Shown here one piece after another: positions 299 to 8,996 of a stretch of DNA of 64,000 nt. This DNA comes from Frondihabitans peucedani (GTDB taxonomy: Bacteria > Actinomycetota > Actinomycetes > Actinomycetales > Microbacteriaceae). The notes below the pieces were generated by a model, which was given only the letters and a program-made list of their open reading frames with translations, was not told the DNA's origin and searched no databases. Position numbers and translations under genes: made by a program. Location: assembly GCF_039537585.1 (NCBI RefSeq), contig NZ_BAABAU010000001.1, forward strand, positions 1,054,001 through 1,118,000, read 5' to 3'. Each line of letters opens with the position of its first letter. Positions within the stretch are counted from its first letter, which is position 1.

Positions 299-314
299 CC
301 GGGCGTGCTCCGGA

Positions 315-320
315 TAGGCT
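315..320 (+). promoter_or_regulatory. Putative -10 box (TAGGCT) for a leaderless transcript
   Basis: TAGGCT matches the actinobacterial TANNNT -10 pattern. It is followed by eight bases and then an in-frame GTG at 329. The same spacing recurs before several other genes here, so this box was used to choose the start of the glycosyltransferase. Confidence 0.45.
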
Positions 321-328
321 CGGTGTCC

Positions 329-1822
329 GTGCCCGCTCCCGTCCGCGTCGTCATCCGCGTCCTCGCTTTCGGCGCCGTCGCAGCCGTGGGGCTCTTCCAG
401 GCCTTCTGGCATCTCGGTCGCGCGAACATCAACCCCGACGAGGGCGTGTACCTCACCGCAGGCCAGCAGTACATCCGCGGTGTCTTCACATTCAACAGGG
501 AGCACCCGCCGACGGCGAAGTACATCCTCGGGCTCGTGCAGGAGGTGCTGGGCCAGAATCTGACCTCCGGCAGGATCGCGGCGACCAGCATCGCCTTCCT
601 CGCCGGCGTGGTGCTCTTCCTCTGGCTCCGCAGGGAGCTCGGCTTCTGGTGGGCTCTGGTCGCGACCGCTTTCTGGTGGCTCCTGCCCCGCGCTGTCGTC
701 CAGACCGGCATCAAGATCGATCGCTTCGCCATCCTCGAGCCGTTCATGGTCTCATTCGCCATCCTCGCCCTCGCCCTCGGCTGGTGGTGGTTCCGCAGGC
801 CCACGTGGTGGGCGGCCGCGCTGGCGGGCGCGGCGATGGCCCTCTCGGTGACGTCGAAGGTCTCCACCGCCTTCCTGGTGGTCACCTTCGCGTTCTTGGC
901 CGTGCGACTCCTGCTCCGCGATCGAGCCGTCCGCGCCGGCCTCGTCGGCCTGGCGAGCTATGTCGCCGCCTTCGTGGCGGTCTTCGCGGCCTCGTGGCAT
1001 CCGATGGGCATGACGAGCGCCATCCGGTACATGCTCGACTTCCAGTCCGAGCAGAACCGACTCGGTCACAACGTGATCGTCGCCGGCCGGGTCGTCCTCC
1101 ATCCACCGTGGTGGGCGAACCTGTGGTTCACCGAGCAGGGGCTCGGTCCGTGGCTCCTCGCGGCCCTCTGCCTGGCCGCCCTCTTCGCGTTCCTCCCCCG
1201 ACCGAGCGAGTTGTCGGTGTACCTGGGGGTCGCCCTCGCCGTCCTCCTGGTCTTCTACCTGCTCGTCGCGAAGAACGCGTTGCCGAGCTACTACTACGTG
1301 TGGGTCTGGATCCTGTTCGTCCTCGCCGCGATCGGCACGAAGAACCTCTTCGAGTTCCGGCGGCAGCGGCGGAGGATCCTCCGTCCCCTCGCGCTCGTCA
1401 TCCTGCTCGTAGCAGGGGCGACCGCCGTGACGACGACAGCCGCGATCGCCCGGGTCGGTCCTACCGGCTTCGCGCGCGTCAGCCCGGTGCTGGCAGAGCA
1501 CGGAGTCACGCGGATCAAGATCCTCAGCACCGGATACGCATCCTGGGAGTTCAAGCCCTACCTCGGCGCAAATGTGAAGGCCGCGACGATCGATGCCTCG
1601 AATCACGCCTCGTTCGGCGGGGCGCCCTTCTCAGCGACTGCGGTTGCGTTGCGGACGGACAACCGCATTCACATCGATCGGCCGCTCGAGACCTTCGTCG
1701 CGAACCACCGGGAGCTCTTCACGCATGTCGTCGTGGACGACGTCGACCTTTATCTGCCGAAGGGCGGCCGGACGGTGATGCAGACAGGCGACTCCTTCGA
1801 CTTCGGGCCGCCGAGCACCTGA
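329..1822 (+). CDS. GT-C/GT39-like membrane glycosyltransferase
   Basis: A protein of about 497 residues with a dozen or so hydrophobic segments. Near the N-terminus the motif NPDEGVYL carries the acidic pair expected in the first extracytoplasmic loop of GT-C enzymes. It is followed by an EHPPTAKYILG motif like the HPP signature of ArnT/PMT-type (GT39/GT83) transferases. Family knowledge: these enzymes move a sugar from a polyprenyl-phosphate donor to a lipid or protein outside the membrane. A C-terminal soluble domain of about 110 residues follows the last membrane helix. The start at GTG 329 is preferred over GTG 305 because TAGGCT lies eight bases upstream of it. The acceptor is unknown. 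Confidence 0.7.
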   Translation: MPAPVRVVIRVLAFGAVAAVGLFQAFWHLGRANINPDEGVYLTAGQQYIRGVFTFNREHPPTAKYILGLVQEVLGQNLTSGRIAATSIAFLAGVVLFLWLRRELGFWWALVATAFWWLLPRAVVQTGIKIDRFAILEPFMVSFAILALALGWWWFRRPTWWAAALAGAAMALSVTSKVSTAFLVVTFAFLAVRLLLRDRAVRAGLVGLASYVAAFVAVFAASWHPMGMTSAIRYMLDFQSEQNRLGHNVIVAGRVVLHPPWWANLWFTEQGLGPWLLAALCLAALFAFLPRPSELSVYLGVALAVLLVFYLLVAKNALPSYYYVWVWILFVLAAIGTKNLFEFRRQRRRILRPLALVILLVAGATAVTTTAAIARVGPTGFARVSPVLAEHGVTRIKILSTGYASWEFKPYLGANVKAATIDASNHASFGGAPFSATAVALRTDNRIHIDRPLETFVANHRELFTHVVVDDVDLYLPKGGRTVMQTGDSFDFGPPST

Positions 1823-2106: not shown

Positions 2107-2142
2107 CTAGACCCACTAGCTAGAGCGTCTAGATGGTTAGAC
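2107..2142. promoter_or_regulatory. Probable MarR operator with overlapping CTAG-containing inverted repeats
   Basis: The core ACTAGCTAGAGCGTCTAG (2115-2132) contains the perfect inverted repeat CTAGA-GCG-TCTAG. A second, GTCTA...TAGAC, runs to 2142, and CTAGA...CTAG begins at 2107. The spaced pattern ACTAG-N-TAGA-N4-CTAG recurs exactly at 5744-5761. MarR proteins typically bind short palindromes of this size next to their own gene, so autoregulation is inferred. Confidence 0.55.
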
Positions 2143-2149
2143 TGAGCCC

Positions 2150-2686
2150 ATGGTGCAGACGAAGCCCAGCGGGGCCACCTTCGACGCTTCCGGCTACTGG
2201 TACGAGAAGACCGATGCCGAGCGCAGCGTCGAAGTGCTGAACGCTCTGCGCCGCTACCGGGCGGCCGAGTCCGAGATGCGGCGACGCACCCGAACCTCGA
2301 TGAAGATGGGCGAGACCGACCTCGCTGCGATCCGCTACCTCCTCCGCGCCGAGCGCAACGACCAGCCCATCAGCGCGAAAGACCTCGCCGATCACCTCGG
2401 CATCACGACGGCCTCGACGTCCGTCCTCATCAACCGGCTCGTCAAGAGCGGCCACCTCGAGCGGCTCCCTCACCCGTCCGACCGGCGCGGCGTCCTCCTG
2501 CGGGCCACCGGCGCCTCCGACGTCGAGGTGCGGGCGACCCTCGACGGCATGCACGCCCGCATGATCCTGCTGGCCGAGGCGCTGTCCGCCGACGAGGCGC
2601 GCGTCATCGCGACCTTCCTGCACGACATGGCCGAGGCCGTCGACATCGACGACCACGCCGTGGTGCCCGCGCCTGCCGACGCCTGA
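2150..2686 (+). CDS. MarR-family transcriptional regulator
   Basis: A 178-residue protein with a MarR winged helix. The helix-turn-helix runs through ISAKDLADHLGITTAST and SVLINRLVKSGHLER (about residues 75-110) and the wing contains PSDRRGVLL. Flanking helices would form the dimer interface. It begins with a 35-residue N-terminal extension that is slightly longer than usual. It heads the carrier-protein cluster and lies directly behind a palindromic operator. A matching operator lies after the cluster at 5744. MarR proteins usually derepress when a small ligand binds, and the ligand cannot be read from sequence. A regulatory role for the downstream amino acid:carrier-protein genes is an inference from position and operator sharing. 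Confidence 0.85.
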   Translation: MVQTKPSGATFDASGYWYEKTDAERSVEVLNALRRYRAAESEMRRRTRTSMKMGETDLAAIRYLLRAERNDQPISAKDLADHLGITTASTSVLINRLVKSGHLERLPHPSDRRGVLLRATGASDVEVRATLDGMHARMILLAEALSADEARVIATFLHDMAEAVDIDDHAVVPAPADA

Positions 2687-2799
2687 CCGTCGACGCCTGA
2701 GGGCGGGCCGCCGCCGGGTCTGAGGCCCGCGTCCTGCTCCTCGCCAGGACCCCGGACTGGGGGCCCGCTCTCGCCTGGCTCTCCGCAGCCCCGCCCACC

Positions 2800-2805
2800 T
2801 ACACT
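2800..2805 (+). promoter_or_regulatory. Possible -10 box (TACACT) for the carrier-protein operon
   Basis: TACACT fits TANNNT and lies 37 bases before the ATG at 2843, in the 156-base gap after marR. It suggests the three-gene operon can start independently of marR. No clear -35 is seen. Confidence 0.3.
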
Positions 2806-2842
2806 TGCAGGACCGGAGCGCCCGAAACGCACGGTCCTCTCC

Positions 2843-3514
2843 ATGCCGATCTCTGACACTCCGCCCCCTCGCCGCCCCGCCGGTCCGCTCGTCCCGCGAG
2901 TGGGTTCCGACCTGGTGTCCGTCGTCGACGTCGAGGGGTCGATCCAGGCCTTCGGCGACCGCTACCTCGACCGGGTCTACACGCAGCTCGAGCTCGAGCA
3001 GTCGTCCCGGTCGCCCGAGCGGCTCGCCGGGCGCTTCGCCGCGAAGGAGGCCGTGACGAAGCTGCTGCGGCCCGAGCGCGGAACAGCGCTCCCCTACCGC
3101 GACATCGAGGTCGTCACCGCGCCGTCCGGCGCTCCGCGGGTGAGGCTCCACGGCCGTGCCGCCGAGCTCCGGCAGGAGCGCGGGCTCTCGCGGATCGACC
3201 TCTCCGTCTCTCACGACCGCGGCCTCGCCCTCGCGACCGCCGTCGCCCTGCTCCACCGAAAGGAACCCGGACCCATGAAGGACACCATCCGCACCGTCCT
3301 CGACCAGCACGGCCACCTGACGAGGCCCGCCGGGGAGGTGGGCGACTCCGACGACCTCTACCAGGCCGGCCTCACGTCGCACGCGACCGTCAACGTCATG
3401 CTCGCCCTGGAGGACGAGCTCGACCTCGAGTTCCCCGACGCCCTCCTCACGCGCGCCACCTTCACCTCCATCGACTCCCTCGCCGCTGCGGCGTCGTCGC
3501 TCCAGGACGCCTGA
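2843..3514 (+). CDS. Fusion of holo-ACP synthase (AcpS-type) and acyl/aminoacyl carrier protein
   Basis: One open frame of 223 residues encodes two partners that are normally separate. Residues about 19-138 are an AcpS-type 4'-phosphopantetheinyl transferase: VGSDLVSV near 20 carries the Mg-binding Asp, RLAGRFAAKEAVTKLL at 60-75 carries the conserved Glu, and IDLSVSHDRGLALA lies near 118-131. Residues about 145-223 are a carrier protein, with DDLYQAGLTSHATVNVM placing the phosphopantetheine-accepting Ser at 179. AcpS would transfer phosphopantetheine from CoA to that Ser, possibly in cis. No stop separates the domains. An internal Met145 (ATG 3275) with its own Shine-Dalgarno could also release the carrier alone. 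The stop overlaps the next start by one base (TGATG). Confidence 0.8.
   Translation: MPISDTPPPRRPAGPLVPRVGSDLVSVVDVEGSIQAFGDRYLDRVYTQLELEQSSRSPERLAGRFAAKEAVTKLLRPERGTALPYRDIEVVTAPSGAPRVRLHGRAAELRQERGLSRIDLSVSHDRGLALATAVALLHRKEPGPMKDTIRTVLDQHGHLTRPAGEVGDSDDLYQAGLTSHATVNVMLALEDELDLEFPDALLTRATFTSIDSLAAAASSLQDA
3258..3277 (+). promoter_or_regulatory. Internal ribosome-binding site and ATG for a stand-alone carrier protein
   Basis: GAAAGGA at 3258-3264 precedes ATG 3275 by ten bases, at exactly the junction between the transferase and carrier domains. Initiation here would yield a 79-residue carrier protein, the normal size for a free carrier. Most neighbouring genes lack so clear a purine-rich site, which makes chance less likely. 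Confidence 0.4.
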
Positions 3515-4719
3515 TGGCCGGAGCCGCCGGCGCAGGAGCCGACGCGACGACCGTGACGCTGCCGGGGCGCTCCCTCGCCGACCGCGCCGCCGACGTCGCG
3601 AGCATCGCGGCTCTCCACGCCGACGACGTCGACGCCCGGGCGAGGTTCCCGCGCGAGGCCGTCGACGCGCTGCGGGAGAACGGCCTGCTCGGCGCAGCGG
3701 TCCCAGAGCACCTCGGCGGCGAGGGCGCCACCGTCTCGGAGCTCGCAGCGGTCGCGACCGTGCTGTCCGAGGCCTGCTCGGCCACGGGCATGATCTACGT
3801 CATGCACCAGATCCAGGTGCTCTGCCTGACCCGGCACGGCGGCGAGAGCCGGGCGGTCGTCGACCTCCTCCGCGGCGTCGCCTCGGGCGGCGTGCTCCTC
3901 GCCTCGGCGACGACCGAGCTGGGCATCGGCGGCAACACGCGCACCAGCAGCTGCGCCGTCGTGCCCGGCGCCGCGGGGCGCGTGATCCTCGAGAAGACCG
4001 CTCCGGTCATCTCGTACGGCGCCTACGCCGACGCGATCCTGACGACCGCCCGCCGCACCCCCGACAGCGTCCCGTCCGACCAGGTGCTCGTCCTCTGCGA
4101 TGCCGCCGACACCGTCCTCACCCCGATCTCGGAGTGGGACACTCTCGGCTTCCGCGGCACCTGCAGCCCGGGGTTCGAGCTCCGCGCCGACGTGCCGGCC
4201 GATCACGTCCTGCCGGCCGAGTACGCGACGATCTCGGCCGAGACCATGCTGCCGGTGTCGCACATCCTGTGGGCGGCCGTGTGGCTCGGGATCGCGAACG
4301 CCGCCACCGAGCGCGCCCGCAGCGTCACCGTCACAGCGGCCCGGAAGGCGATCGGCACCCTGCCGCCGTCGGCGACGCGCTTGGCAGAGCTTCTCGGCGA
4401 CCTCGAGGTCTTCGCGGCGCTCGTCCGCGACTCCGCGCGCACCTTCGACGAGGTCGCCGACGACCGCGCGGCCCTCACGACCATCCCGATGGCGATGCGC
4501 TTCAACTCCCTCAAGATCACGTCCTCGGAGACCGTCATCGAGATCGTCTCCACAGCCATGCTGATCACCGGGATCGCGGGCTACCGCCTCGACTCCGACG
4601 TCAGCGTCGGGCGTCAGCTCCGCGACTCGTACGGGACCGCCGTCATGGTCAACAACGACCGCATCCTCGCCAACAACGCTCAGCTCTCTCTGCTGACAAG
4701 GAAGAAGGCCGCACGATGA
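3514..4719 (+). CDS. Acyl-CoA dehydrogenase-like flavoprotein, probably acting on a carrier-bound acyl or aminoacyl group
   Basis: A 401-residue protein with acyl-CoA dehydrogenase layout. It has an alpha-helical N-domain (FPREAVDALRENGLLGAAVP, about 48-67), a beta-domain flavin motif ASATTELGIGGNT near 130, and a C-terminal helical bundle ending DSYGTAVMVNNDRILANN. Family knowledge: such enzymes use FAD to desaturate an acyl thioester alpha,beta. Relatives such as PltE act on prolyl groups on carrier proteins. The usual IYEGTNEIQ motif with the catalytic Glu is not visible, so the base may differ or the reaction may be another flavin oxidation. The gene is translationally coupled on both sides (TGATG and ATGA), which ties it to the carrier protein and ligase. 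The substrate is inferred, not shown. Confidence 0.75.
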   Translation: MAGAAGAGADATTVTLPGRSLADRAADVASIAALHADDVDARARFPREAVDALRENGLLGAAVPEHLGGEGATVSELAAVATVLSEACSATGMIYVMHQIQVLCLTRHGGESRAVVDLLRGVASGGVLLASATTELGIGGNTRTSSCAVVPGAAGRVILEKTAPVISYGAYADAILTTARRTPDSVPSDQVLVLCDAADTVLTPISEWDTLGFRGTCSPGFELRADVPADHVLPAEYATISAETMLPVSHILWAAVWLGIANAATERARSVTVTAARKAIGTLPPSATRLAELLGDLEVFAALVRDSARTFDEVADDRAALTTIPMAMRFNSLKITSSETVIEIVSTAMLITGIAGYRLDSDVSVGRQLRDSYGTAVMVNNDRILANNAQLSLLTRKKAAR

Positions 4720-5702
4720 GCGACACCCGACACGGCGAGCCGGCCGCACTCGATCCTGCGGGCACCCCCGGAGAGACCGTGAGCGAGCTCGACGCGGCAC
4801 GGGACGCCTTCCGTGAGGAGCTCCTCGCCTCGGGCCTGCTCGTCGATGCCGGCCAGCCGGGCCTCTACGGGCGCTCCGGCGAGCTGGAGGACGTCGTCGA
4901 CGGCGTCTCGCGCTACGTGCAGTCGCGCTTCGCCGACCTCCGGCCGAGCCGGAGGCGCTTCGCCCCGGTGATCTCCCGGGCCGAGTTCGAGAAGACCGAG
5001 TACATCGTGTCGTTCCCGCAGCTCACCGGAGCGGTCCACGGCTTCACCGGCACCGACGCGGAGCACAAGAGACTCGTGAGCACTCGTGCCCAGGGCCTGC
5101 CGTGGGACTCCTTCCTCTCCCCCGCCGAGACGATGCTCGTCCCGGCCGTGTGCCACCCGCTGTTCGAACGGCTCCGCGGTACGACGAATCCCGAGGGGCA
5201 GATCTTCGACCTCGAGGGCTTCTGCTTCCGACACGAGCCCTCGCGCGACCCGATGCGCCTCCAGGCCTTCCGGCAGCACGAGCTCGTCTTCGTCGGTCCG
5301 GGCTCGCTCGCCTACGACTTCCGCACCGAGATGAACGAGCGGCAGCTCCGCGACCTCCGAGAGCTCGGGCTGGACGCACGGGTGGTCCCGGCGAACGACC
5401 CATTCTTCGGCCGGACCGGTCGCTTCCTGGCCCGCAATCAGCTCGAAGACGAGGCGAAGCTCGAGGTGGTGGTGCCCATCTACGGCGACCTCGACGACGG
5501 CACCGCCATCGCTTCCGCGAACCGCCACGGCGACCACTTCGGCGCGACGTTCGGCATCGAGGCGGGCGTCGGCGAGGCGGCGCACAGCACCTGCCTCGGC
5601 TGGGGCCTCGAGCGCACCGCCCTGGCCCTGATCCGGACCCACGGCACCGACACGTCGGCGTGGCCGGAGAGCACCCGCAGGCTGCTCTCGCTGTCCAGCT
5701 GA
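4716..5702 (+). CDS. Amino acid:[carrier protein] ligase, a seryl-tRNA-synthetase-like homologue
   Basis: A 328-residue class II synthetase core without a tRNA-binding coiled coil. Motif 2 is FCFRHEPSRDPMRLQAFRQHE (about 169-189) and motif 3 is GWGLERTALAL (295-305, with Arg300). Cys146, Glu189 and Cys293 sit at the same spacing as the zinc-binding Cys/Glu/Cys triad of the characterised Bradyrhizobium amino acid:[carrier protein] ligases. Those enzymes activate a small amino acid such as glycine or alanine with ATP and attach it to the phosphopantetheine of a carrier protein. The ATGA overlap with the dehydrogenase and the carrier domain two genes upstream support this role. Which amino acid is used cannot be read here. 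It should not be annotated as a tRNA ligase. Confidence 0.85.
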   Translation: MSDTRHGEPAALDPAGTPGETVSELDAARDAFREELLASGLLVDAGQPGLYGRSGELEDVVDGVSRYVQSRFADLRPSRRRFAPVISRAEFEKTEYIVSFPQLTGAVHGFTGTDAEHKRLVSTRAQGLPWDSFLSPAETMLVPAVCHPLFERLRGTTNPEGQIFDLEGFCFRHEPSRDPMRLQAFRQHELVFVGPGSLAYDFRTEMNERQLRDLRELGLDARVVPANDPFFGRTGRFLARNQLEDEAKLEVVVPIYGDLDDGTAIASANRHGDHFGATFGIEAGVGEAAHSTCLGWGLERTALALIRTHGTDTSAWPESTRRLLSLSS

Positions 5703-5743: not shown

Positions 5744-5778
5744 ACTAGTTAGACGAACTAGGCAAACCGGTGTAGAAC
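5744..5778 (+). promoter_or_regulatory. Second copy of the MarR-type operator overlapping a putative promoter
   Basis: ACTAGTTAGACGAACTAG (5744-5761) contains the perfect inverted repeat CTAGTT-N5-AACTAG and fits the same spaced pattern as the operator before marR. TTAGAC (5749-5754) and TAGAAC (5773-5778), 18 bases apart, could be -35 and -10 boxes. Binding would then cover the -35. Confidence 0.45.
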
Positions 5779-5882: not shown

Positions 5883-6056
5883 ATGACCACCAGCACCGCC
5901 GGGCCGAAACCCCGCTACCGCCGCACGACATCGCCCGCGGGCCTCTCGCCGCAGGCCGACCGCATCGTCAACAGGATCATCGCCGTGGCGGCCGGAGCCG
6001 GCATGTGCACCAGCCTCGCGGTCGCCTTCGTCAGCTCGGCCGGCCTCCTCCGCTGA
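5883..6056 (+). CDS. Small putative membrane protein (57 residues)
   Basis: ATG 5883 opens a 57-residue frame. It has a basic N-terminal half (GPKPRYRRTT) and one strongly hydrophobic segment, IIAVAAGAGMCTSLAVAFV, near residues 32-50, followed by a short tail ending in Arg. I do not recognise a family. Its upstream region carries the operator shared with marR, so it may be part of the same regulon, for example as an efflux or stress peptide, but that is speculation. No strong Shine-Dalgarno is seen and the leader would be about 100 bases, so it could be non-coding. Confidence 0.4.
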   Translation: MTTSTAGPKPRYRRTTSPAGLSPQADRIVNRIIAVAAGAGMCTSLAVAFVSSAGLLR

Positions 6057-6146: not shown

Positions 6147-7007
6147 TCAGGCCAGCAGACTCCGCAGGTACTCCCCGTAGCCGCTCTTGACGAGCGGCGC
6201 CGCGAGCGCGGCGAGACGCTCATCGTCGATCCAGCCGCGACGCCAGGCGATCTCCTCGACGCAGCCGACCTTGAAGCCCTGCCGCTGCTCGATGACGCGG
6301 ACGTACTCGGACGCCTGCATCATCGACTCGTGCGTGCCGGTGTCGAGCCAGGCGGTCCCTCGCTCGAGGACCTGCACCTGCAGGGCTCCGATCGACAGGT
6401 AGTGGTCGTTGACCGCGGTGATCTCGAGCTCGCCGCGGGGGCTCGGCGTGATGCTCTTCGCGATCTCGACGACGCGGTTGTCGTAGAAGTAGAGCCCGGG
6501 CACCGCGTAGTTGCTCTTGGGGTTCTCGGGCTTCTCCTCGATGGAGACCGCGCTGAACTCGGCGTCGAACTCGACGACGCCGTAGGCCCGCGGGTTCGCC
6601 ACGTGGTACGCGAAGATCACGCCGCCGTCGGGGTCGGTGTTGGCCCGGAGGCTCGAGCCGAGACCGGTGCCGTGGAAGATGTTGTCGCCGAGCACGAGCG
6701 CGACCTTCTCGTCGCCGATGAACTCCTCGCCGATGATGAAGGCCTGCGCCAGGCCGTCGGGCGAGGGCTGGACCGCGTAGGTCAGCTCGATGCCGAGCTC
6801 GCTGCCGTCGCCGAGGAGGCGCTGGAACTGCGACGCGTCGTCGGGGGTCGTGATGATCAGGATCTCGCGGATCCCCGCCGACATCAGCGTCGACAGGGGG
6901 TAGTAGATCATCGGCTTGTCGTAGATGGGCACGAGCTGCTTGGAGATGCCCTTGGTGATCGGGTAGAGCCGCGTGCCGGAGCCGCCAGCGAGGATGATGC
7001 CGCGCAT
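6147..7007 (-). CDS. rmlA: Glucose-1-phosphate thymidylyltransferase
   Basis: A 286-residue enzyme catalysing the first step of dTDP-L-rhamnose synthesis: glucose-1-phosphate plus dTTP gives dTDP-glucose. The N-terminus [18 protein letters not shown] has the nucleotidyltransferase signature, followed by [20 protein letters not shown]. The metal-binding LGDNIFHG lies near 107-114, and [20 protein letters not shown] near 160 is characteristic of RmlA. Length matches the family. It starts two bases after the rmlC stop, so the two genes form an operon read away from the divergent glycosyltransferase at 7677. The other two pathway genes (rmlB, rmlD) lie 25 kb away at 32.3-34.2 kb. Confidence 0.95.
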
Positions 7008-7009
7008 GC

Positions 7010-7636
7010 TCAGGCCCCCGCGCTCGTCGAGGACTGCGTCCGCAGCGTCTCGTAGTAGGCCAGACACTCGGCATAGGAGGGCAAGAGGCCCCGGTCGGCG
7101 GCCTCCGCCAGGGTCGGCGCCTCGACGTCCTTCGGCGACAGGAGCGGCTCGCCGAGGTCGCTCGGGAACGTCAGCCCGATCTCGGGGTCGGTGACGCTCA
7201 GGCCCTTCTCCCGCTCCGGATTGAACACCTCCGACACCAGGTAGTTGACGGTGGCGCCCTCGGTCAGCGCGACGATGGCGTGCCCGAGGCCCTCCGAGAG
7301 GTACACGGCGCGGCGGTCGACGTCGTCGATGAGGACGCTGTCCCACTGGCCGAAGGTCGGCGAGCCGGTGCGGATGTCGATGATGAAGTCGATGAACGCG
7401 CCCTTGGGGGCCGAGACGTACTTGGCCTGGCTCGGCGGCACCAGCGCGTAGTGGATGCCGCGCGCCACGCCCCGGGACGACACGGAGGTGTTGGTCTGCT
7501 TGAGGGTCAGGGCGTGGCCGACCGTCTCTTCGAGGGCCTCGTAGCGGTACTGCTCGAAGAAGACCCCTCGGTCGTCGCCGTGCTGCTTCGGCGTGAACTC
7601 CCACGCCCCCGGGATCGTCAATTCGCGAATCTGCAC
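7010..7636 (-). CDS. rmlC: dTDP-4-dehydrorhamnose 3,5-epimerase
   Basis: A 208-residue cupin enzyme that epimerises C3 and C5 of dTDP-4-keto-6-deoxyglucose. The motif [17 protein letters not shown] lies near the start, and [21 protein letters not shown] (about 54-74) holds the active-site His and basic residues. [20 protein letters not shown] and the FNPEREKG region follow in the usual order. The GTG start at 7636 lies six bases after the -10-like TAGGCT on the minus strand (7648-7643), indicating a leaderless message. It is immediately upstream of rmlA. Confidence 0.93.
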
Positions 7637-7642
7637 CCGTGG

Positions 7643-7667
7643 AGCCTAGCAAGGGCTCGGCTAGGCT
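7643..7667. promoter_or_regulatory. Back-to-back -10 boxes for divergent leaderless genes
   Basis: AGCCTA (7643-7648, TAGGCT on the minus strand) is six bases from the rmlC GTG. TAGGCT (7662-7667) is nine bases from the ATG at 7677. The two boxes are 13 bases apart, so each promoter's -35 region overlaps the other transcription unit. Confidence 0.5.
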
Positions 7668-7676
7668 CGATCGGAC

Positions 7677-8996
7677 ATGAACACCACCAAACTGCGCCGT
7701 CTTCTCGCCGATCTGCTCCGAGTCAACGGCCGGTACCTGCGCGACGACGTCTACCGCAACACGATCCGCGAGCGGCTGAACAACGTCGGCGTCGGCAGCC
7801 ACGCGATCGAGGCGCGCGAGGTGAAGCGCTCCCCGCGGGCCGCTCGACCGTTCCGCGGTCTCGTCGAGACCAGCCTCGCGCTGTCCGGCATCGACCGCAG
7901 CGGCGGGGGCCGCCACGTCAACATCGTGCTCGGCGAGGTGCGCGAGGGCGGTGCCTTCGCCGGCATCCAGACAGCCGTGGCCGTCGGGGTCGCGCTGGCG
8001 TCCGAACTCGGTCTCCCGGTCCGCGTGGTGATGGTGTCGTGGACGACGCCCGGCAACTCGTCGAAGGCCGCCGCCGCGGTGCTCCGCGAGCGCTTTCCGG
8101 GCGTGAGCTTCGAGGTGGTCGCTCGCGAGGAGATCCTGCGCGCCTCGTTCGGAGAGCAGGACGTGTGGCTGGCGACGCACTGGAAGACCGCCCACGCGAT
8201 CGACGTGGCCGCCACGTCCGGCGTGATCGACCGGGCCCGCGTCGGCTATCTGGTCCAGGACTTCGAGCCGGGCTTCAGCCCCTGGTCGACGGAGTTCGCG
8301 CTGGCACGGGCGACGTACCACGCGGGATTCCGCCTGCTCGTCAACTCGGCCCCCCTCCAGCAGTACCTCGCCCGGGAGGAGGGCGTCGAGGTGCCCGACG
8401 ACGCGACGTTCTCGCCACACTTCGACCTCGACCTCCTGCGCCGCGTGGCCGAGGAGCGCTCGCACGACGCGACGACGCGGGTCCTCTTCTACGGCCGCCC
8501 CTCCAAGCACCGGAACCTCTTCCGCATCGGCGTCTCCGCCCTGCAGATCGCCGTCGACCGTCTCGAGGGCTCGGGCCTCACCCTCGAGTTCGCCTCGGCC
8601 GGCGAAGTGCACCGCGACGTCGACCTCGGTCACGGTCAGAAGCTCGAGAGCGTCGGCACGCTGCCGTGGGACGACTACTTCCGCTTCATCGCCTCCCGGA
8701 ACGTCGTGCTGAGCCTGCAGCTGAGCCCGCACCCGAGCCACCCGCCCTTCGACGGCGCCATCTCGGGCGCGCAGGTCGTCACGAACGAGTTCGCCGACAC
8801 CCGGTCTGCTCTCCACCCCAACATCGACGCGGTCGCCGCCGACCCGGTCAGCCTCGGCGAGGCGGTGGCTCGAGCCGTCCGACGTGCCGCGGCCGACGGG
8901 CCCACCGGCTACCGCGATCTGGCGCCCGGCGCCCTCGGCGGGTCGCTCGACGACGCCGTCGCCCACCTCGCTCGACAGCTCCAGGAGTCCGCATGA
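7677..8996 (+). CDS. Rhamnosyltransferase-like glycosyltransferase (WsaF type, GT4 fold)
   Basis: A 439-residue protein. The N-domain carries [19 protein letters not shown]. The characteristic [17 protein letters not shown] motif near 195-211 is shared with WsaF-type rhamnosyltransferases. The C-domain has [14 protein letters not shown] and the donor-site region [16 protein letters not shown]. Related enzymes transfer dTDP-rhamnose during S-layer or cell-wall glycan assembly, which fits the divergent rmlC-rmlA operon. It starts a run of four genes with ATGA/GTGA overlaps up to 14225, so all are probably one transcript. Rhamnose as donor is inferred. Confidence 0.75.

Follow-up and report, generated by a model that had tools for sequence, protein, structure and literature searches.

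Comparative analysis defines a set of four proteins in Frondihabitans peucedani, a soil-type actinobacterium of the Microbacteriaceae, namely a fused AcpS-carrier protein, a flavoprotein, a SerRS-like amino acid:[carrier protein] ligase and a tandem hydrolase with a predicted cysteine nucleophile, and it names the hydrolase as the missing partner. The comparison supports well both the module and its predicted hydrolase partner. We tentatively propose that the set carries out a stand-alone activation, oxidation and handing-on of an amino acid, with N-oxygenation as the more likely oxidation, a reading to which we give somewhat less than even weight. The biological role of amino acid:[carrier protein] ligases was called unknown in a 2022 review (PMC9437257); the four-protein set predicts a mass shift, and makes the role of these ligases testable with recombinant proteins.

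Organization of the locus

The window, that is, the whole analysed stretch of 64,000 nucleotides (contig NZ_BAABAU010000001.1, positions 1,054,001 to 1,118,000), contains the following features.

2150..2686, + strand, MarR-family regulator (Pfam MarR_2, 5e-12), adjacent to the conserved unit and outside it
2843..3514, + strand, fused AcpS-carrier protein of 223 aa (Pfam ACPS, 1.8e-13; PP-binding, 1.5e-5)
~2897-3247 and ~3275-3508, + strand, AcpS part and carrier part, respectively, within 2843..3514
3377..3379, + strand, codon of the predicted phosphopantetheine Ser179 (motif GLTSH; sequence and alignment)
3514..4719, + strand, flavoprotein of acyl-CoA dehydrogenase fold (Pfam Acyl-CoA_dh_N, 1e-13; dh_1, 1e-9; alignment, model and fold search)
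4716..5702, + strand, SerRS-like amino acid:[carrier protein] ligase (NF005479, 6e-104; PDB 4h2w/3mey)
5151..5153, + strand, zinc ligand Cys146 (invariant in 17 ligases)
5280..5282, + strand, zinc ligand Glu189 (invariant in 17 ligases)
5592..5594, + strand, zinc ligand Cys293 (invariant in 17 ligases)

Direct reading of the sequence showed that the carrier and flavoprotein genes overlap by one base at 3514 (TGATG) and the flavoprotein and ligase genes by four bases at 4716-4719 (ATGA); GTG at 2900 is a possible alternative start of the AcpS-carrier frame. The same gene order is found in many genomes, so it is not a matter of chance. The reading frames, the protein families, the overlaps of the last three genes and the Cys146/Glu189/Cys293 triad given in the earlier note were all confirmed by domain searches, the sequence and alignment. 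The nearest named relative found was Frondihabitans sp. PhB188, with a ligase identity of 71% (a contig search with this single protein, which returned one locus). The locus is surrounded by a surface-glycan cluster (window 305-1822 and 6147-29310) with rfbA/rfbC-like genes and many glycosyltransferases, together with a CDP-glycerol glycerophosphotransferase-like protein and an AT3-SGNH acyltransferase.

The ligase and its AcpS-fused carrier

The ligase (328 aa) matched PRK07080/NF005479 over nearly its full length (E 6e-104) with 347 bits, just below the 357-bit cut-off, and its best PDB match was Bradyrhizobium amino acid:[carrier protein] ligase 1 (9e-64). The zinc triad was invariant in all 17 aligned ligases. 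The carrier part passed NCBIfam PRK07081/NF005480, the cognate carrier family of the ligase, with 103 bits against a cut-off of 72; an adjoining carrier of this family is a membership feature of amino acid:[carrier protein] ligases, and it is present here. Loading of the carrier by the ligase, as the earlier note had supposed, is well supported by this homology. The SerRS-like catalytic core would also suit an enzyme that charges tRNA; however, the similarity to type-2 SerRS is limited to that core, the nearest structures are annotated as amino acid:[carrier protein] ligases, and one of the overlapping genes encodes a cognate-family carrier, and we regard tRNA charging as hardly tenable. The substrate is presumably glycine or alanine, by homology and in line with a review (PMC9437257).

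The AcpS Asp and Glu are present in the fused protein, and Ser179 lies within GLTSH in the alignment. Fusion of AcpS to the carrier was found only in the window and in the near relatives L013, L014 and L023; elsewhere AcpS is encoded by a separate gene, usually a neighbour. With two other AcpS-type domains in the genome, the fused one, a third, looks dedicated, which favours the earlier suggestion that the cluster primes its own carrier. At L016 (6870-8291) and L019 (12353-13768), AcpS forms the C-terminal end of a 470-aa protein, and the N-terminal 330 residues of that protein had no Pfam match. At L013 (5799-7463) and L014 (12605-14248), the AcpS-carrier gene has a divergently oriented neighbour, an ABC-F ribosomal-protection-like gene, and near the L014 cluster (6190-7695; genome G087) is the gene for a WXG100-like protein that carries a TNT-type toxin domain at its C terminus.

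A tandem hydrolase accompanies the ligase

We found that in nine close clusters (L013-L020 and L023) the gene 3' of the ligase encodes a protein of 530-590 aa with two alpha/beta hydrolase domains. This hydrolase is a fifth partner, absent from the gene set of the earlier note. Its gene lies next to that of the ligase in almost every relative from the family. Searching by tblastn revealed no hydrolase remnant 3' of the window ligase, and a homologue lies at G000:C1:1985366-1987093, 0.93 Mb from the ligase and beside a phosphoketolase operon. The earlier statement that no thioesterase or transferase is present thus holds for the locus and not for the genome. At L025 (9364-17870), the unlinked hydrolase follows phosphoketolase, TPP enzyme and alcohol dehydrogenase genes on the same strand.

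Among 200 genomes of Microbacteriaceae, the ligase (scores above 200 bits) occurred in 11, and the hydrolase and the flavoprotein in 10 each, both subsets of the 11. A naive hypergeometric calculation gave 5e-16, a value that takes no account of common descent or of physical linkage and serves as a guide only. Within the genus, ligase and hydrolase are found in the same four of seven genomes, though they are unlinked in this genome; what is informative is the retention of the hydrolase here without linkage.

The co-occurrence check put forward in the earlier note came out well for the flavoprotein, which was confined to ligase-bearing genomes, and failed for the MarR gene that the note had counted in the cluster. 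No MarR homologue was found beside other ligase clusters in the neighbourhood comparison, and MarR was ruled out as a member of the unit for this reason. A perfect palindrome, CTAGTTAGACGAACTAG (window 5745-5761), lies 3' of the ligase gene and has one other near match genome-wide (C4:511417), and a CTAG/GTTAGAC-rich stretch (window 2107-2139) lies upstream of marR; both are possibly MarR sites. Located 3' of the palindrome is a 57-aa ORF (window 5883-6056) that has a single hydrophobic stretch and matches no family.

Profiles of seven families, run on 25 ligase clusters, distinguished three forms. Form A (Proteobacteria and some actinobacteria) has carrier, flavoprotein, ligase, DUF1839 and a GH2 glycosidase, often with the tandem alpha/beta hydrolase, while form B (Microbacteriaceae) has AcpS, carrier, flavoprotein, ligase and tandem hydrolase. 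Form C (L022, L041 and L047) consists of AcpS, carrier, ligase and hydrolase, has no flavoprotein, and sits among glycosyltransferases and sugar transferases. A flavoprotein lies near the ligase in 20 of the 25 clusters (one of them weak, L052) and the hydrolase in 18 (not in L040, L046, L049, both L050 clusters or L052); both counts include annotated genes where gene calling shortened them. DUF1839, which has a papain-like fold (PMC10318531), gave no match in this genome, a weak negative since control genomes were equally silent. At L052 (1966-9583), distant relatives of ligase, carrier and flavoprotein are embedded in a nonribosomal peptide synthetase locus. In genome G338, about 8 kb separates two ligase clusters that differ from each other (L050 7144-8736 and 15899-19307): flavoprotein and DUF1839 are present in only one of them.

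In the second hydrolase domain, a Cys at the nucleophile position and a His are invariant in all 18 homologues, and an Asp is present in 17 of them; this conservation extends to clusters without flavoprotein. A catalytic role of the N-terminal domain was rejected, its nucleophile position not being conserved. A Cys nucleophile, rather than Ser, is more usual in acyl transfer; the predicted Cys nucleophile would fit such a transfer, and release is possible. TIGR03100 and TIGR03101 (exosortase-A-associated hydrolases 1 and 2) matched only distantly, with scores far below both cut-offs, and a literature search on these exosortase hydrolases found nothing. The identity of the unlinked hydrolase is 54%, against 61-65% within the genus. 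This divergence, together with the lack of a remnant beside the ligase, might indicate that the window copy is decaying, having lost its adjacent hydrolase and no longer making its product. All reading frames are intact and the catalytic residues kept, however, and the distant hydrolase retains its triad, which makes decay very unlikely.

Proposed oxidation chemistry of the flavoprotein

Pfam, a structural model and fold search agree on an acyl-CoA dehydrogenase fold with N- and C-terminal domains (predicted structure, pLDDT 85.8). Foldseek with this model ranked the amine oxygenase KijD3 first. In VIA-align, KijD3 was again top but tied: MsuC, DszC and a number of acyl-CoA dehydrogenases differed from it by no more than one Z unit (Z 35-37), so the fold alone does not decide between oxygenase and dehydrogenase. 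By sequence, the best PDB match was 7p98, a cyclohexenecarboxyl-CoA dehydrogenase; KijD3 and DnmZ came next.

The position of the MCAD-type base, in the C-terminal EGT-type loop, is occupied by Val or Ile in 15 of 15 aligned flavoproteins, and none has Glu there (the alignment row of L021 is shortened by gene calling; a genome search shows an intact gene), whereas the genome's own canonical acyl-CoA dehydrogenase (L053) has Glu. At the IVD-type position in helix G, which we mapped from that of IVD rather than by superposition on Bmp3, Ser/Thr249 stands beside an invariant His250, and the region has no conserved acid. Loss of Glu is no proof of oxygenation, because 7p98 has Thr at this canonical position in the same alignment and is nevertheless a dehydrogenase. 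No flavin reductase or ETF is encoded within the cluster.

Related enzymes acting on carrier-bound amino acids help to weigh these observations. CaeB1 dehydrogenates tethered cysteine and requires its Glu, the E372L variant being inactive (PMC8149447), and the catalytic Glu is reported as essential in Bmp3/AnaB (PMC10849742). ChmG, an acyl-CoA dehydrogenase relative with Met in place of the catalytic Glu and a KijD3-like structure, N-oxygenates prolyl-S-ACP (PMC10849742). Since the flavoprotein lacks Glu, as does the N-oxygenating ChmG, and CaeB1 needs it, N-oxygenation of the tethered amino acid is moderately favoured over its dehydrogenation. The earlier note had proposed, by analogy, a PltE-type dehydrogenation, which is weakened by the lack of a conserved Glu at either base position as mapped here and by KijD3 among the nearest structures. 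Such a reaction, giving a dehydro- or imino-acyl thioester as with PltE, RedW and CaeB1/ColB1, would be in keeping with a fold that is the same as in ColB1 (7xp7, Z 35.7), a homologue of CaeB1, with the dehydrogenase 7p98 as best sequence match, and with a weak match to NF045652 (prolyl-carrier dehydrogenase RedW; 37.7 bits, cut-off 650), and His250 might serve as a substitute base. Against it, besides the missing Glu, a glycine substrate would offer no beta carbon for alpha,beta-dehydrogenation, and we consider dehydrogenation rather unlikely.

Proposed mechanism and purpose of the module

From gene order, conserved residues and co-occurrence, which were observed, we infer every chemical step that follows, including the oxidation and the acceptor. 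Within the fused protein, the AcpS half would modify the carrier half with phosphopantetheine. The ligase would adenylate a small amino acid (by homology, glycine or alanine) and load it onto the carrier as a thioester. The flavoprotein would then oxidise the tethered aminoacyl group, giving N-hydroxyaminoacyl-S-carrier (+16 Da) more likely than a dehydrogenated product (-2 Da). The acyl group may then move to the Cys-Asp-His domain of the unlinked hydrolase, which would transfer it to an acceptor (our first guess is a surface glycan) or else release it.

The purpose could instead lie, as with Dlt and AlmEFG, in attaching an amino acid to a surface glycan, oxidation being optional tailoring. 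The clusters without flavoprotein, which keep ligase, carrier, AcpS and Cys hydrolase amid glycosyltransferases and sugar transferases, point in this direction, as do the glycan cluster around the window locus and a published prediction that the amino acid is ligated to a surface sugar (PMC2922099). In the Microbacteriaceae, however, most relatives that have the flavoprotein lie outside glycan loci, so a glycan acceptor is not supported by their context, and the module has no integral-membrane transferase; we see glycan attachment as a possible but minority reading. Surface-glycan context as a conserved trait of this architecture was rejected on the same observation. A free small molecule, with the hydrolase acting as a thioesterase to set the oxidised amino acid free, appears unlikely: the alpha/beta hydrolase ChmF does release N-hydroxypyrrole carboxylate from its carrier (PMC10849742), and the distant L052 set lies in a peptide synthetase locus, yet the cluster has no other pathway enzymes. 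The predicted nucleophile, Cys and not Ser, also speaks against release. The most specific form of the oxidative proposal, in which a Glu-less flavoprotein N-oxygenates amino acids loaded on the carrier by the ligase and the Cys hydrolase transfers them to a surface glycan or another acceptor, is speculative and rather improbable; if true, it would represent a novel type of amino-acid decoration and provide the role still lacking for the ligase family.

Comparison with known systems

The association of carrier, flavoprotein and ligase is widespread and already noted in the literature. In Bradyrhizobium, the locus tags of the ligase (bll0957) and of an acyl-CoA dehydrogenase (bll0958) are consecutive (PMC10888616). 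The Bll0957 system (PRK07080/PRK07081) shares with the window the ligase core, the zinc triad, the carrier family and an acyl-CoA dehydrogenase gene, whereas in the window AcpS and carrier form one protein, DUF1839 and GH2 genes are absent, and the hydrolase is unlinked. In a note in proof of 2010, the Aravind group named as neighbours of the ligase an ACP, a redox enzyme, an uncharacterised protein and a glycosidase; they predicted modification of the aminoacyl group by the redox enzyme, and ligation of the amino acid to a surface sugar (PMC2922099). Three genes of that neighbourhood are present in the window, while DUF1839 and GH2 are missing from it; the note in proof is silent on the alpha/beta hydrolase and on AcpS (PMC2922099).

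The exosortase-A-associated hydrolases 1 and 2 are two alpha/beta hydrolases used together, and in this they resemble the tandem protein, in which two such domains are fused. The AlmEFG and Dlt systems load an amino acid onto a small carrier for transfer to a surface glycan. The logic may be shared with the present module; the ligase and transferase families are different, and those systems are not known to include an oxidation step. The ChmIJGHF proteins of chalkophomycin (PMC10849742) likewise comprise a stand-alone carrier, a stand-alone ligase and an alpha/beta hydrolase, with a Glu-less, KijD3-like acyl-CoA dehydrogenase relative to which we liken the window flavoprotein on the basis of the description of ChmG. 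The ligase of ChmIJGHF is an adenylating enzyme for proline, whereas that of the window is SerRS-like.
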